Below, one piece after another: positions 12,097 to 44,933 of a stretch of DNA of 47,560 bases. How positions within the stretch are numbered: the stretch's first letter is position 1; every line of letters begins with the position of its first letter. The stretch is from a virus. Where the stretch lies: positions 1 through 47,560 of IMG/VR virus record IMGVR_UViG_3300042400_001382; one strand, 5' to 3'. The position numbers and the translations under genes were made by a program. The notes beneath the pieces were generated by a model. The model searched no databases. It saw only the letters and a list, made by a program, of their open reading frames with translations, and was not told the DNA's origin.

Positions 12097-14772
12097 TTAT
12101 ACCGATAAATATTTGATGACATTATTTGTTGATAGTGGTTTTATTACTGTTATCAACTGAGAATTTGCTGTATTAGAAATTAATTGTATATTATTATTAG
12201 AAGAAAAATATAAAATATTATCAATTTTATCTATAACTGGGTAATTATTTCCTTTCACAGTAATGTAATCACCAACTACAACAAATGTATTTACTGAATA
12301 TATTTCGTTTGTTGCATCTTGTTGTATTATTACTGAATTTGCATTAGCAATACCGCTATACACATTAGAATATTTATATTGTATATAATCAGACAAAATT
12401 AAAATGGAATTTGTTTGATCTATTTCAAGTATTTTTGAATATACATTCATATAATTATTCGACATAATTGATAATATAGTATCTACACTTAATTCTGAAA
12501 TATTAGACGAAACTGTATACGTGTTAGAGTAATTAGTATTCCCTGGTAACAACGTAATAGTAAAATTATTTTGAGATCTAATACCAAGATTAACATTTGA
12601 TTGAGTATTTTGAGAAATATTTGTATTAGACCTTAATAAATTTCTTGGAACTATTCTGGAAGATATTGGATGCACTAAATTTAAAATCGGTTCTTTGTAC
12701 TCATCATAACTAACTTCAGAAGATAAAAAATATGTTGATGAATTATAGATATCACTTTGCAGAATTGAGAATGCTGATGGTTGACCATCAGCATTCAAAT
12801 ATGTTCCATCTCCAATAATTAACCCATTTAAAAATTTCGCAGTAGCAGATGCTGTTCCATCCCCGTAAATTTTATTACCCGAATCCAACCCACCAATTGG
12901 TGTTGAAGTTATGGTATATTCATCCAAATCTACGGAACTTATTATGTCGTATAATTTTAAATTCTGATTAGGCGAAAATGTTCCTTTATAATTATAAACT
13001 CGTATTCTATAAATATCATCAGAAAATCCAACAGACTCATCTGATATTTTTAAAAACGATTCAGGATAACCAGAAAAAGTGGCTTGATTATACGAACTTC
13101 CTTGATACACAGCCGTATTTAATATGGTGGCATTTAATACATTACTAACTGCAATATCTTGTATTCGTAGAAATACATTTGGAGTAGAAATATAATCTTC
13201 ACCATTTTCTATTAATTTAATTTGCGTGATTGAGCCAATTTTTTCTGTTTCTAACGTATATTCAACACCAGTTCCCATAATTCTTGGAACGATTAATGAT
13301 GCATTTGAACCTGTGTTAGAAGAGATCGATACTGATGGTAAATTTGAATTTTTGTACCCCATACCACCAACAACATAAGGGGTATTGTTGCTAGAAAAAT
13401 ACTCGACACCAGTAATAGTACCATTAGCAGATAAACTGGATATTCGTGCAAACACAAAATCTCCATCCCCTCCATTTATGGATATGCTATCATTTGCTGT
13501 ATAATTAATACCTCCATTTAAAATTTGTATTGGAGCTAAAATACCAAAACTTTCTATAATTTGGTTATTATTTGATGTATCATGGACTAGTGAATTTATA
13601 TTTAAAGATGGTGGTGAAGTGTATCCACCACCACCATTTTTAATAGTTAAATCTGATATTGGATAAGTTGTAAAATTTAAAAACGAAAATGTGTTTGCAA
13701 GAGTAGAATTAATGTTAGCGTTAACGCTAAAATTGTAAACATTACTGTACAAATTAACTGAATAATTTTGAGCAATGCTATCAACAGGCAATTTGTAAAT
13801 CCCCGAGGGTTTTGATGTGTCGACTAAACTAACAACGACATTTGCTACTGTATCAATTTGCCCGTTGTATAATACATCAACGCTTGAGTCAGGAAAAATA
13901 TTATAACCTATTCCACCATTAGTTACTGTTGCATTATTTATAGCTCCTAATGTTACTGCGGAAATTTCCGCAGTTGCTGCAATAGGATTTTCTGATTCAG
14001 GATTAAGTCCACCTAAAATAACAACAGGATCTCCAACACTATAAAATTGCCCTCTTCTATCGCTATCTATTGTAATGCCAGATAAAGCCCCAATAATTTT
14101 CGCAGACAACGATTCAGCATTTACAGGAAGATTTTCAAGTTTTTGATATTCAACTGGGTGTCCATTTACAAAATATATTTCTTTATTGTTTCTATCTAAA
14201 ACTTTTATTTCTTCTCCTGAATAAAATAATCGTTCAATATTTGACAAATATATTTGCGTAAATTTGCCATTAATTTTTGCAAATTCTACTATACCAAAAG
14301 TTTTTGATTGAATTCCAAATATAATATAATTGTTTATATTTAAAAATCTTGGATCTAATGATTTTATTTTTATAGATTTTGGTACTACCCATTTACCGTC
14401 GCTTGCTTTGAATACAAAATCTCTAGTTGGAGTAACTTCTGAATAACTATCATACAATGCTTTAAATAAAAATTTAAAAGAATCACCAATACCTTTTGCT
14501 TTATATAATTCTTTTACAATTTTTAATAATTTTATTTTATCTGTGGCTATATGATGAGGAAAATATGGTAAAAAATCTGCTTGGTAGTATTGTAAAAACG
14601 AATCATAATCAGAATCAATATCAATTGTATCAGAAAAATTAGTTAAATTATAGGTATCATTAAACCAATTATAGTATTCCTCAAAAAAAGATATAAAATT
14701 TGTGTATTGTGGATCTTCTACAATATATGCAGGTAATTTTGATTGTAATATCGTCGAATAATTTTTATCCAT
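12097..14772 (-). CDS. Baseplate wedge protein at the gp7 position
   Basis: This 891-residue protein starts [20 protein letters not shown], followed by FISFFEEYYNW and DFLPYFPHHIATDKIKLLK, a pattern reminiscent of P2 gpI-like wedge proteins that partner with baseplate-J proteins. The centre contains several glycine-rich units (NGGGGYTSPPSLNIN, NGGINYTANDSISING, GGMGYKNSNLPSVSIS) typical of beta-rich phage structural repeats. It overlaps the gp6 start by one base and precedes gp8, the slot of T4 gp7 (1032 residues). I infer that it forms the wedge heterotrimer with gp6. Sequence identity to gp7 itself is not evident by eye. Confidence 0.7.
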   Translation of the reverse strand: MDKNYSTILQSKLPAYIVEDPQYTNFISFFEEYYNWFNDTYNLTNFSDTIDIDSDYDSFLQYYQADFLPYFPHHIATDKIKLLKIVKELYKAKGIGDSFKFLFKALYDSYSEVTPTRDFVFKASDGKWVVPKSIKIKSLDPRFLNINNYIIFGIQSKTFGIVEFAKINGKFTQIYLSNIERLFYSGEEIKVLDRNNKEIYFVNGHPVEYQKLENLPVNAESLSAKIIGALSGITIDSDRRGQFYSVGDPVVILGGLNPESENPIAATAEISAVTLGAINNATVTNGGIGYNIFPDSSVDVLYNGQIDTVANVVVSLVDTSKPSGIYKLPVDSIAQNYSVNLYSNVYNFSVNANINSTLANTFSFLNFTTYPISDLTIKNGGGGYTSPPSLNINSLVHDTSNNNQIIESFGILAPIQILNGGINYTANDSISINGGDGDFVFARISSLSANGTITGVEYFSSNNTPYVVGGMGYKNSNLPSVSISSNTGSNASLIVPRIMGTGVEYTLETEKIGSITQIKLIENGEDYISTPNVFLRIQDIAVSNVLNATILNTAVYQGSSYNQATFSGYPESFLKISDESVGFSDDIYRIRVYNYKGTFSPNQNLKLYDIISSVDLDEYTITSTPIGGLDSGNKIYGDGTASATAKFLNGLIIGDGTYLNADGQPSAFSILQSDIYNSSTYFLSSEVSYDEYKEPILNLVHPISSRIVPRNLLRSNTNISQNTQSNVNLGIRSQNNFTITLLPGNTNYSNTYTVSSNISELSVDTILSIMSNNYMNVYSKILEIDQTNSILILSDYIQYKYSNVYSGIANANSVIIQQDATNEIYSVNTFVVVGDYITVKGNNYPVIDKIDNILYFSSNNNIQLISNTANSQLITVIKPLSTNNVIKYLSV

Positions 14773-32338: not shown

Positions 32339-32390
32339 AATAACCTCAGGGTAATTTTGCAATAATAAATAGTTCAAGCATAAAAAATGC

Positions 32391-32419
32391 TTGACAAAAT
32401 TTAACTATTACTATATAGT
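32391..32419 (+). promoter_or_regulatory. Strong sigma70-type promoter for the structured RNA
   Basis: TTGACA (32391-32396), a 17-base spacer and TATAGT (32414-32419) form a near-consensus promoter, with transcription expected to start near 32426. The -35 overlaps an inverted repeat TCAAGCAT-AAAAA-ATGCTTGA (32374-32394). Confidence 0.8.
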
Positions 32420-32425
32420 AGTAAT

Positions 32426-32760
32426 ATACAAGTGTCTATATAAAGGTTGATGTGCCGACAGAATCACATTGGCAACCTATCCCGCAATTAAGTGTTGAGG
32501 ATAGCTATGCCGTTACAAATACAGGAGTCCAGATACTACTCCGACACTTCTAGGTGAAACTAGATGGAACTATAACTATACCAAACAAGAGATGATCCAA
32601 TAAGGCGCAGGATCTTCAATATCGCTACAGGTGTGGAAAGCAGCAGAACCAATCTTGGGTTATAGTGGTAAAAATACCTGTCTTGTTCAAAAAAAGAACT
32701 TGGTTTGCATAAGCCTTGTTCAACCAAAGAAAATCTAATAGAATATTCTAATGAAAAATC
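32426..32760 (+). ncRNA. Candidate structured non-coding RNA
   Basis: No convincing plus-strand reading frame exists here, yet the transcript from the 32391 promoter folds well by eye. AAGTGTC (32430-32436) pairs with GACACTT (32543-32549), enclosing three hairpins: AGGTTGATGTG with CACAT..CAACCT (32444-32478), ATCC with GGAT (32479-32502), and GGAGT with ACTCC (32524-32542). TCTAG/CTAGA (32549-32564), GATCC/GGATC (32594-32614) and ACAGGT/ACCTGT (32627-32681), with an inner AACC/GGTT, follow. The multi-branched layout suggests a stable functional RNA. The 3' end is uncertain. I do not recognise the family. No tRNA, tmRNA or group I intron core is seen. Confidence 0.6.
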
Positions 32761-32779
32761 AGATTTAAAAAGAAAAACT

Positions 32780-32860
32780 CTGCGTAGCAGATCCCCGAGC
32801 GAAGCGAAGGGGATTAAATTAAGCATCAATTAAATTCGCTTCGCGAATCCTGCTACGCAG
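32780..32860. repeat. GC-rich inverted-repeat element
   Basis: CTGCGTAGCAG (32780-32790) is the exact inverse complement of CTGCTACGCAG (32850-32860), and GCGAAGCGAA (32799-32808) of TTCGCTTCGC (32835-32844). An alternative local stem is ATCCCC/GGGGAT (32791-32814). It is markedly GC-rich compared with its surroundings, like a REP-type or mobile palindromic element. It may also end or stabilise the upstream RNA. Confidence 0.8.
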
Positions 32861-32888
32861 GAACCTTATAAGTAAAGTTAATGTTTAA

Positions 32889-33287
32889 ATGGATATTACT
32901 TTAAGATTAATTATGACTAGAAAAGAAAAACAAATTACTTATCATAAATTTTATGATGTAGATAACAAATTCAATAATATTATTAAATCTAAATCAGATT
33001 TAGTGTCAAAAGAAACTTTGTTAAACGATCTGTATTCAAATTATAAAGATTATTTTATTGCTGATACTATTTTAAATCCTGTTAGGAAAAAATCAACAAT
33101 AAAAAAGAAAAATAGCAATAAAAAACGTTCAACAATGTCTGGTGTTTATTTTAACAGTTTAAAGAACAAATATTCTGTTTTAATAGCTGCTGATGGAATT
33201 AATCAAAAACATTATGGTTATTATAATACATTAGAACAAGCTGAACAAAAATGTATTAGTGTTAAACAAAAATTAAATTTACAATAA
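32889..33287 (+). CDS. AP2-like DNA-binding domain protein
   Basis: This 132-residue protein is Lys-rich. The C-terminal 50 residues (SGVYFNSLKNKYSVLIAADG, then HYGYYNTLEQAEQKC) match the three-strand plus helix pattern of AP2-like domains found in phage proteins and HNH homing endonucleases. No HNH or GIY-YIG catalytic motif is present, so it is a DNA-binding protein or a remnant of a homing endonuclease. Neither ATG (32889 or codon 9) has a clear ribosome site. It follows the GC-rich inverted repeat. Confidence 0.6.
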   Translation: MDITLRLIMTRKEKQITYHKFYDVDNKFNNIIKSKSDLVSKETLLNDLYSNYKDYFIADTILNPVRKKSTIKKKNSNKKRSTMSGVYFNSLKNKYSVLIAADGINQKHYGYYNTLEQAEQKCISVKQKLNLQ

Positions 33288-33317: not shown

Positions 33318-33482
33318 ATGGAATTAGATAAACAGAAAATTATTCGAGCCTTAGATACTCTAAGGGAATATAATAAATGGCGAAGAGGAAAAATTAATGA
33401 ATCACCTAATGCTAGTTCTATTGGTGAGTCAATTGATTATGTAATCGAGTTTATATCAACAGAAGTATTAAACAAAAAATAA
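33318..33482 (+). CDS. Small hypothetical protein (54 aa)
   Basis: An ATG with AAGGAATTTAAATT upstream opens a 54-residue frame, MELDKQKIIRALDTLREYNK ... SIDYVIEFISTEVLNKK. The composition is helical and charged with a phage-like codon pattern. It lies in a series of small rightward genes and ends four bases before the next ATG. Function unknown. Confidence 0.6.
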   Translation: MELDKQKIIRALDTLREYNKWRRGKINESPNASSIGESIDYVIEFISTEVLNKK

Positions 33483-34518: not shown

Positions 34519-34776
34519 ATGACTACTTTTTCTAAAGAAGATATTAAACAATTATTGCAAAATAATGTTGGTACTGTAACTTTCACTAAAACTGATGGTA
34601 CAGAACGAGTTATGAAATGCACTTTACAATCTCATGTGTTACCTATTACTGAAATTGTTGAGGGTAAAGTAATTAAAACCGAAAATCCTAATGTGTTATC
34701 TGTTTGGGATTTAGATAATAATGGTTGGCGTTCTTTCAAAATTGATTCTGTACTTTCATTAAATATTAATATTTAA
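34519..34776 (+). CDS. Small protein with SH3-like DUF2693 pattern
   Basis: This 85-residue protein reads TTFSKEDIKQLLQNNVGTVT, then FTKTDGTERVMKCTL and VWDLDNNGWRSFKIDSVLS. The pattern of a helix, a TDG.ER.M.CT strand and W.....WRSF....V resembles DUF2693-type small phage proteins. The specific function is unknown. It has its own promoter with an overlapping palindrome, so its expression is probably regulated. It meets the HNH gene tail to tail with a four-base overlap. Confidence 0.65.
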   Translation: MTTFSKEDIKQLLQNNVGTVTFTKTDGTERVMKCTLQSHVLPITEIVEGKVIKTENPNVLSVWDLDNNGWRSFKIDSVLSLNINI

Positions 34777-35522
34777 AGATATTGTTTGAATTCTGGAGCA
34801 ACCTTAATTAAATTAGCTTTATCATAACAGTGCTTTGACTCAATAAGACAGAAAAATTGTTTTCCGAATATTGAATTTTCTGCTGCATTTTTGATGTGTG
34901 TTTTTGATAATGTTCTGCCTGGATACCATTTTTCTGGGATTATTTGATTTTTAGGAATTCGTTTATTATCGATACCATTAGTTATCCAAATTTTATTAAA
35001 ACAAGGATTATTTTCCCCTTGTTTCGCGGATTTCATTTTTTGTATAGATTTATCGGAATGAGTCTTATTATAGAATGGGTTATTTTCGCCTTTCATATTT
35101 TGCGAAAGAGATGTTGATCTTATTCTTTTTACCCATCCATATTCTTTATTAGTTAATCTTTTATTATATTTACTGTAAACAAACATCATATTTGCTACAT
35201 AAATTAATGATTCCATGTAATCGAATGTGGAGGAAAAACATTTTATTAATAATAAATGGACTGTTAAGTGTTCTTCTGGAGTTAATTTAACTAAATTATT
35301 TTTGTTATTTCCTGTTCCACCTAAGAATCCAATTTTACCTTTTCTTTTTCTTTTGGTGAAAAAACATTCAGGGACAATATGGTGAGTTTCTGTGTATCCA
35401 AGTATTTCTCTATTTACAGCATTTTCTATGAGTGAAATATACCGCTTTAAATATTTACTCGCCTCTCGTGATTGTATAGAAAGGGTAGAAATAAGATTAA
35501 TATAAGTATTTTTGCTGGACAT
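34773..35522 (-). CDS. HNH homing endonuclease with NUMOD-like DNA-binding repeats
   Basis: I chose the ATG at 35522 (MSSKNTYINL), with GAGA six bases upstream. An ATG four codons earlier is also possible. The product (249 residues) has the HNH core TETHHIVPECFFTKRKRKGK, then NNLVKLTPEEHLTVHLLLIK. It is followed by NUMOD3-like repeats (KGENNPFYNKTHSDKSIQKM and GENNPCFNK) and a C-terminal helix-turn-helix-like tail. These are typical free-standing homing endonucleases that cut a cognate site in related phages. It is on the opposite strand from its neighbours, immediately beside the topoisomerase gene, and AT-rich, consistent with a selfish insertion. Confidence 0.8.
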   Translation of the reverse strand: MSSKNTYINLISTLSIQSREASKYLKRYISLIENAVNREILGYTETHHIVPECFFTKRKRKGKIGFLGGTGNNKNNLVKLTPEEHLTVHLLLIKCFSSTFDYMESLIYVANMMFVYSKYNKRLTNKEYGWVKRIRSTSLSQNMKGENNPFYNKTHSDKSIQKMKSAKQGENNPCFNKIWITNGIDNKRIPKNQIIPEKWYPGRTLSKTHIKNAAENSIFGKQFFCLIESKHCYDKANLIKVAPEFKQYL

Positions 35523-35582
35523 AGGTATTCTCAATTACTAGTGAAAATATGTTTAGAGTCAATGGATGGTGACACATCGCGA

Positions 35583-44171: not shown

Positions 44172-44933
44172 ATGGCTACTACATCTGAAATAATTAAAGC
44201 AAGTGCTACAGAAAAACCATTGTTAAATAAATTAAATTTGACATTAGGTATTGCTCTGTATTTAATATTCTATTCATTTATTAGGTGGTATGAAGGCGTT
44301 TACGGCTGGTCTGCGGGATTAGACTCATTTGCGCCCGAATTTGAAACCTATTGGATGAATATGTTGTATATCGAAATCGTTGCAGAAGTAGTATTATTTG
44401 CAGGTATTAATGGTTATATTTGGAAATCTCGTGATCGCGCAATGATTGCTGGTGCGGCATTAGCTCCTCGTGAAGAATTACGTCGTCATTTTACTCACTG
44501 GACATGGTTGGTTTGCTACGGTTGGGCTATCTATTGGGGTGCTAGTTACTTTACCGAACAAGACGGTACATGGCATCAAACTATCGTTCGTGATACTGAC
44601 TTTACTCCAAGTCATATTATCGAATTCTATTTGAGTTATCCAATCTATATCATCACTGGTACAGCTAGTTTTATGTATGCAAAAACAAGATTGCCTACTT
44701 ATCAACAAGGTTTACATTTGATGTATTTGATCGCGGTTATCGGTCCTTTCATGATCTTACCGAACGTTGGTTTAAACGAATGGGGGCACACATTCTGGTT
44801 TATGGAAGAATTATTTGTTGCTCCATTACATTATGGGTTTGTATTTTTTGGTTGGGCTGCTCTCGCAGTAATGGGTGTTGTGAACACCGAAGTAATGGCA
44901 ATTTCTAAATTATTGAAAAATGATTTAGTATAA
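44172..44933 (+). CDS. pmoC: Particulate methane monooxygenase subunit C (PmoC)
   Basis: This 253-residue protein is full length for PmoC (about 250-290). It has landmarks RWYEGVYGWSAGLDSFAPEF, ETYWMNMLY, PREELRRHFTHWTW, AIYWGASYFTEQDGTWHQ, TDFTPSHIIEFYLSYPIYII, NEWGHTFWFMEELFVAPLHY and about six membrane helices. The C-subunit copper-site ligands known in methanotrophs are present as Asp131, His135 and His148. The sequence is closer to gammaproteobacterial PmoC than to AmoC by recall. It would assemble with host PmoA and PmoB, which are not in this window, in the membrane complex that oxidises methane to methanol. AAGGAGTCTTAC precedes the ATG. GC content is locally high (31 of 60 bases at 44281-44340), in line with host origin or constraint. 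Confidence 0.97.
   Translation: MATTSEIIKASATEKPLLNKLNLTLGIALYLIFYSFIRWYEGVYGWSAGLDSFAPEFETYWMNMLYIEIVAEVVLFAGINGYIWKSRDRAMIAGAALAPREELRRHFTHWTWLVCYGWAIYWGASYFTEQDGTWHQTIVRDTDFTPSHIIEFYLSYPIYIITGTASFMYAKTRLPTYQQGLHLMYLIAVIGPFMILPNVGLNEWGHTFWFMEELFVAPLHYGFVFFGWAALAVMGVVNTEVMAISKLLKNDLV

Follow-up and report, generated by a model that had tools for sequence, protein, structure and literature searches.

What does a virus keep in a stretch of its genome that holds no convincing gene? The window, by which we mean the whole of the DNA analysed, is the 47,560-base virus fragment of IMG/VR record IMGVR_UViG_3300042400_001382, and the gap in question runs from a 115-aa ORF (minus strand, ending at 32377) to an ORF at 32889, with a G+C content of 34-40% over the RNA region against about 27% in its surroundings. 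The first-pass annotation had described a region without a convincing gene, and there is none between these two ORFs; it had read the region as a multi-branched structured phage RNA, and homologues at the same locus do keep the promoter and the pairing, the latter through compensatory changes. We give a probability of roughly 0.75 to the reading that the gap holds an RNA gene, about 300 nt long and standing alone, in a T4-like methanotroph phage that carries pmoC, and that this RNA acts in trans, its invariant 3' domain binding a partner and its 5' domain serving as a scaffold. The sequences directly show conservation, compensatory pairing, the promoter sequence, the lack of a conserved frame, a single copy per record, and a fixed locus. 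The main features are as follows.

32391-32419, plus strand: sigma-70-type promoter TTGACA-17-TATAGT, 11 of 12 consensus matches
32426-32735, plus strand: structured RNA gene, placed by homology, consensus fold, and kept pairs, with predicted transcript ends
32780-32860, no strand assigned: imperfect palindrome CTGCGTAGCAG ... GCGAAGCGAA ... TTCGCTTCGC ... CTGCTACGCAG, 3' of the RNA

The near-consensus promoter reported earlier is present, with its -35 box TTGACA at 32391-32396, a spacer of 17 bases, and its -10 box TATAGT at 32414-32419. Of the region's 10 promoter-like sites, a number no different from that in shuffled sequence, it scores highest, and four relatives (L003-L006) keep it as TTGACT-17-TATAGT. 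An inverted repeat, TCAAGCAT-AAAAA-ATGCTTGA (32374-32394), overlaps the -35 box, and a similar repeat, GTCAAGCA..TGCTTGAC, is present in the second group of relatives described below (group B); these repeats may mark divergent promoters placed back to back, or an operator.

The phage itself is T4-like in gene content, with topoisomerase II subunits, a gp32-like single-strand binding protein, an RNase H-like exonuclease, and a PhoH-like ATPase assigned by inspection. It also carries a complete pmoC/amoC gene, encoding methane monooxygenase subunit C (44172-44933, plus strand; Pfam AmoC, E 7e-124), for which a tblastn search of the GenBank phage collection returned no relative. AmoC/PmoC was found in 7 of 16 records searched, the window counted, and all seven have one of the two RNAs described here; the six other pmoC-bearing records of the clade represent both RNA groups. 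We infer that the host is a methanotroph because pmoC phages, known from freshwater lakes, were assigned methanotroph hosts (PMC7674155). In one record, L013 (G025), pmoC lies in two pieces (13221-13808 and 14058-14183) about 250 bases apart, resembling the fragmented pmoC of phage LR_6 (PMC7674155); the gap between the pieces could be an inserted element.

Relatives of the locus were collected with the PhoH gene as bait, which yielded 17; the nearest gene used as bait yielded none. Four of the 17, L003-L006, share the window's RNA at the same locus (group A) and are 77% identical to it from the promoter through to 32733; about one base separates L003/L004 from L005/L006, so that group A is effectively two lineages, the window included. 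Some 10 other relatives have a longer sequence, group B, in the same slot behind a promoter of the same kind, and one, L069, has the same gene order and the same next gene and lacks the RNA, with just a short promoter spacer in its place. The RNA is single copy in each record searched, and its slot lies between the PhoH/gp33-like gene block and the topoisomerase gene block. Wider searches with core 17-mers of group A against IMG/VR and with a group A 20-mer against GTDB genomes returned only the known contigs and unrelated matches, and a second core pattern, for group B, added no new lineage except one truncated contig. More distant gp33-like relatives had no matching RNA upstream, and a comparable gap beside the DUF6433 gene was not found in Cr30, P-HM2, or Pelagibacter phage Mosig.

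Mobile genes are clustered around the RNA locus. A NUMOD3 homing endonuclease (34773-35534, minus strand) adjoins the topoisomerase gene, and the 132-aa ORF just 3' of the RNA (32889-33287, plus strand) resembles the C-terminal part of HNH endonucleases. In L009 and L010 an extra reading frame, by its look a candidate GIY-YIG homing endonuclease, lies between the homologue of the 115-aa ORF and the group B promoter; it is missing in closely related records.

Does the gap fold as an RNA? The earlier claim of more pairing than expected by chance fails for the window taken alone: 32425-32720 folded by itself is unremarkable (z = -0.54, with 53 of 200 shuffles as good), and the fold of 32425-32880 reaches z = -4.3 owing largely to the palindrome at 32780-32860. 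The pairing signal is visible only in comparison. The RNAalifold consensus of the window and L006 has an energy of -59.8 kcal/mol against a shuffled mean of -28.5 (sd 4.0; z = -7.9), and none of 200 control alignments, shuffled within conservation classes without preserving dinucleotides, folded as well; by part, z is -7.5 for the 5' domain and -2.9 for the 3' domain. With the window, L006, and L004 aligned, the group A structure, which was drawn with both sequences in view, comprises 54 pairs with 100% of cells paired and 6 two-sided changes, compared with 2.0 in letter-shuffled controls and 0-1 with slid partners. Homologues with covariation, proposed earlier as a check on the structure, thus exist in two lineages. 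The covariation of group A alone is modest, since a blind helix search found 2 helices with at least 2 compensatory pairs against 0.74 by chance. Support for group A rests mainly on the consensus energy and on agreement with the window-only fold; when that fold is carried over to L006, 9-13 of the changed pairs still pair (6-7 of them by two-sided changes) and 10-15 break. The parts of the structure are these.

32432-32437, plus strand: 5' strand (GUGUCU) of a proposed pseudoknot, pairing with AGAUAC at 32531-32536 in the loop of the 32524-32542 hairpin
32445-32448/32722-32725, plus strand: possible closing helix GGUU/AACC, proposed, invariant in all three sequences
32449-32470, plus strand: hairpin GAUGUG/CACAUU, 2 two-sided changes (GUG/CAC to ACG/CGU)
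32477-32504, plus strand: hairpin CUAUCC/GGAUAG, 1 two-sided change
32524-32542, plus strand: hairpin GGAGU/ACUCC, 2 two-sided changes (to GAGGU/ACCUC)
32549-32564, plus strand: hairpin UCUAG/CUAGA, pairs invariant, loop length variable
32580-32685, plus strand: conserved 3' domain, about 95% identical to L006 over 32580-32661
32594-32598/32610-32614, plus strand: hairpin of the 3' domain, pairs invariant
32627-32633/32675-32681, plus strand: stem of the 3' domain enclosing hairpin 32647-32650/32658-32661, pairs invariant
32696-32721, plus strand: 3' hairpin GAAC-UU-GG/CC-UU-GUUC, 1 two-sided change (GAAU/AUUC in L006)

This map keeps much of the architecture first drawn by eye and corrects it in places. 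Each of the three hairpins said to be enclosed by a 7-bp outer stem (32449-32470, 32477-32504, and 32524-32542) shows two-sided changes. The outer stem itself (32430-32436 with 32543-32549) forms in the window's fold, but two of its seven pairs are broken in L006 (ATGTGTC/GTTACTT). The pseudoknot would compete with that stem; its six pairs are kept in L006, where one G-U becomes G-C with no two-sided change, and it is a weak case, only a proposal because the sequences are so few. Further on, the stems within 32594-32614, 32627-32681, and 32647-32661 are kept but invariant, and invariant pairs of the 3' domain are uninformative about pairing. The stems first drawn stopped at 32681; the RNA reaches further, to the covarying hairpin at 32696-32721.

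The divergence of the two lineages is uneven along the RNA. Neighbouring DNA is 71-77% identical and an adjacent 103-residue protein 50% identical; against this baseline the 5' half of the RNA is divergent yet covarying, and the 3' half is about 95% identical. Indels separate the window from L006, and each of the six frames is interrupted in at least one of them; this, together with the conservation pattern, implies that selection acts on the RNA or the DNA itself. G-U pairs occur when the plus strand is read, which points to an RNA transcribed in the plus direction.

Beyond the RNA, the palindrome is built of GCGAAGCGAA and CTGCGTAGCAG modules, both of them motifs unique to this site within the window, and in both groups, A and B, a related GCGAAGCGAA hairpin comes after the RNA; in L011 this hairpin carries a compensatory change, GAGCAAAGCG/CTTTGCTC. 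The palindrome is a possible 3'-end, terminator, or insulator hairpin.

The sister phages provide a second case in the same slot. The group B RNA is about 400 nt long, lies behind its own promoter (TTGACT-17-TACACT, TAAACT, or TATACT), and ends in an 8-bp terminator-like hairpin followed by a U-run, UUUUUCUUU; a further promoter precedes the next operon. Because of its own promoter, its terminator-like hairpin, and the separate operon promoter, group B would most likely be a stand-alone RNA gene. Its structure, supported by five distinct sequences, has 90 pairs, and 98.9% of their cells are paired; two-sided changes number 18, where shuffled controls give 3.8 and slid partners 0-2. A blind search recovered 9 helices with at least 2 compensatory pairs, against 0.21 (maximum 1) when columns were shuffled; some of these helices are mutually exclusive, and five are included in the model. 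One of the helices is a pseudoknot, in which GUCACA pairs with UGUGAC in a hairpin loop, and the pairing recurs as GUCGCA/UGCGAC in one lineage and as GUCACG/CGUGAC in another.

Groups A and B are alike in locus, promoter type, and downstream palindrome, and in both the 3' domain is nearly invariant and the 5' domain variable and covarying. By blastn the two share nothing but the promoter region and the palindrome downstream, and of two covariance models, R1 and R2 (for the B 5' domain and the A 3' domain), neither matches the other group. The two could descend from one RNA and have diverged extremely, or one could have replaced the other in the slot. At least two unlike RNA genes thus appear, from sequence comparison, to use the same slot in pmoC phages. 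More tentatively, and at somewhat less than even odds, pmoC methanotroph phages may reserve a single slot, flanked by the PhoH/gp33-like block and the topoisomerase block, for a large structured RNA; different lineages would fill it with A (about 300 nt) or with B (about 400 nt, bearing a covarying loop pseudoknot), two families without detectable common origin. If true, this could reflect a shared task in host takeover met by unlike RNAs, or extremely rapid RNA evolution.

How would the RNA of the window work? The enzyme that transcribes from 32391-32419 would most likely be the host RNA polymerase carrying its main sigma factor, or a phage-modified form of it. In the product, an RNA of about 300 nt, a fast-evolving 5' domain with four hairpins, which the loop pseudoknot perhaps locks, would act as a scaffold that needs its shape alone, while the nearly invariant 3' domain would most likely do the work, by binding in trans to a protein or complex of the phage or the host. 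Transcription and its timing, the ends of the transcript, and action in trans are the parts of this explanation that we infer.

Alternatively, the RNA could be a cis-acting leader, riboswitch-like or an attenuator, belonging to the operon downstream, whose start is at 32889 here and at 33318 or 33487 in relatives. It lies upstream of those genes on the same strand, and neither a clear intrinsic terminator nor a U-run terminator was found 3' of the window's RNA. However, the next gene differs, the 132-aa ORF at 32889 not being found in relatives; between RNA and operon stands the conserved palindrome, joined in L006 and in group B by a promoter-like sequence of its own; group B ends in its hairpin and U-run; and L069 has the same next gene but no RNA. 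Together these make a leader unlikely.

A stand-alone RNA could also work by base pairing, as an antisense regulator or sponge whose 3' domain pairs with host or phage RNA. The sequence of that domain is strongly conserved and partly unpaired in the model, but complementarity to the rest of the window and to the E. coli rRNA operon is at chance level, and we regard this mode of action as distinctly unlikely. Mimicry of rRNA was rejected in the same comparison, in which nothing rose above chance.

That the conserved unit is DNA, a replication origin or palindromic regulatory region with no working RNA, is very unlikely. The element sits between divergent transcription units with replication genes adjoining and the palindrome downstream, and T4 origins use transcripts as primers. 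The compensatory changes, however, include plus-strand G-U pairs, which are mismatches in the other strand, and the loops vary freely while the stems still pair, whereas DNA-binding sites would conserve sequence instead. A small protein gene or remnant, for which overlapping ORFs of 33 and 35 aa (plus strand) and 89 aa (minus strand, TTG start) might speak, is scarcely credible and largely refuted by the breaks in all six frames and the indels between the window and L006, which also answer the earlier question of a conserved protein frame through the region. Two further candidates were rejected: an intron, there being no interrupted gene and the element lying between divergent genes, and a retron or an IscB or TnpB guide RNA, none of the corresponding genes being seen among the neighbouring ORFs.

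The stand-alone RNA gene that we favour is most likely a family outside the catalogued ones. The first-pass annotation could not match it by eye to any known large phage RNA, and Rfam 15 (4227 families) gave no match at curated thresholds in the window, L006, L009, L011, or L012, weak matches to VrrA, snoRNAs, and Qrr being below gathering score and at chance level, and an ARAGORN scan of the window and eight related loci found no tRNA or tmRNA. In RNA A, compensatory changes preserve the pairing, the mark of a new family, across just two lineages. A literature search found no paper on a noncoding RNA of methanotroph phages. Reads in a pmoC-phage transcriptome study were mapped to protein-coding genes, so RNA A could have been missed there (PMC7674155). 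The locus adds at least one, and probably two, compact RNA families in phages that are believed to affect methane oxidation. Both RNAs are small enough for biochemistry, with clear stems and pseudoknots to mutate, and the fixed locus together with the RNA-free relative L069 offers a built-in comparison.

To our knowledge, large structured phage RNAs are few, and the best-known ones all lack a settled function. Among small stand-alone structured phage RNAs are the phi29 pRNA, which serves DNA packaging, and the T4 stable RNAs C and D, which are located in a tRNA cluster; RNA A differs from these in having no Rfam match to them and no such context. An RNA of about 800 nt from a gap without ORFs is the most abundant transcript of phage ICP1 (PMC7567579); RNA A likewise lies in an ORF-less gap, and the ICP1 RNA, longer and from another phage and host, is likened to it by description, not by sequence. 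GOLLD and ROOL, with which the first-pass annotation had compared the element, are phage and prophage RNAs of unknown function, ROOL being a stand-alone structured RNA with pseudoknots (PMC12286853). GOLLD is often longer than 800 nt, often lies beside or contains tRNA genes, and is marked by a homo-oligomeric cage; the solved ROOL is 659 nt. RNAs A and B, at about 300 and 400 nt, are shorter than both, and their loci have no tRNA genes and lie away from tRNA islands. Across the RNA regions of the window, L006, and L012 the GOLLD model gave no match, even with E relaxed to 10, and the Rfam covariance model of ROOL matched neither RNA A nor RNA B. The comparison therefore stands for the kind of RNA but not, by the Rfam models, for descent, and RNA A is best read as a new family that is like GOLLD and ROOL in kind.
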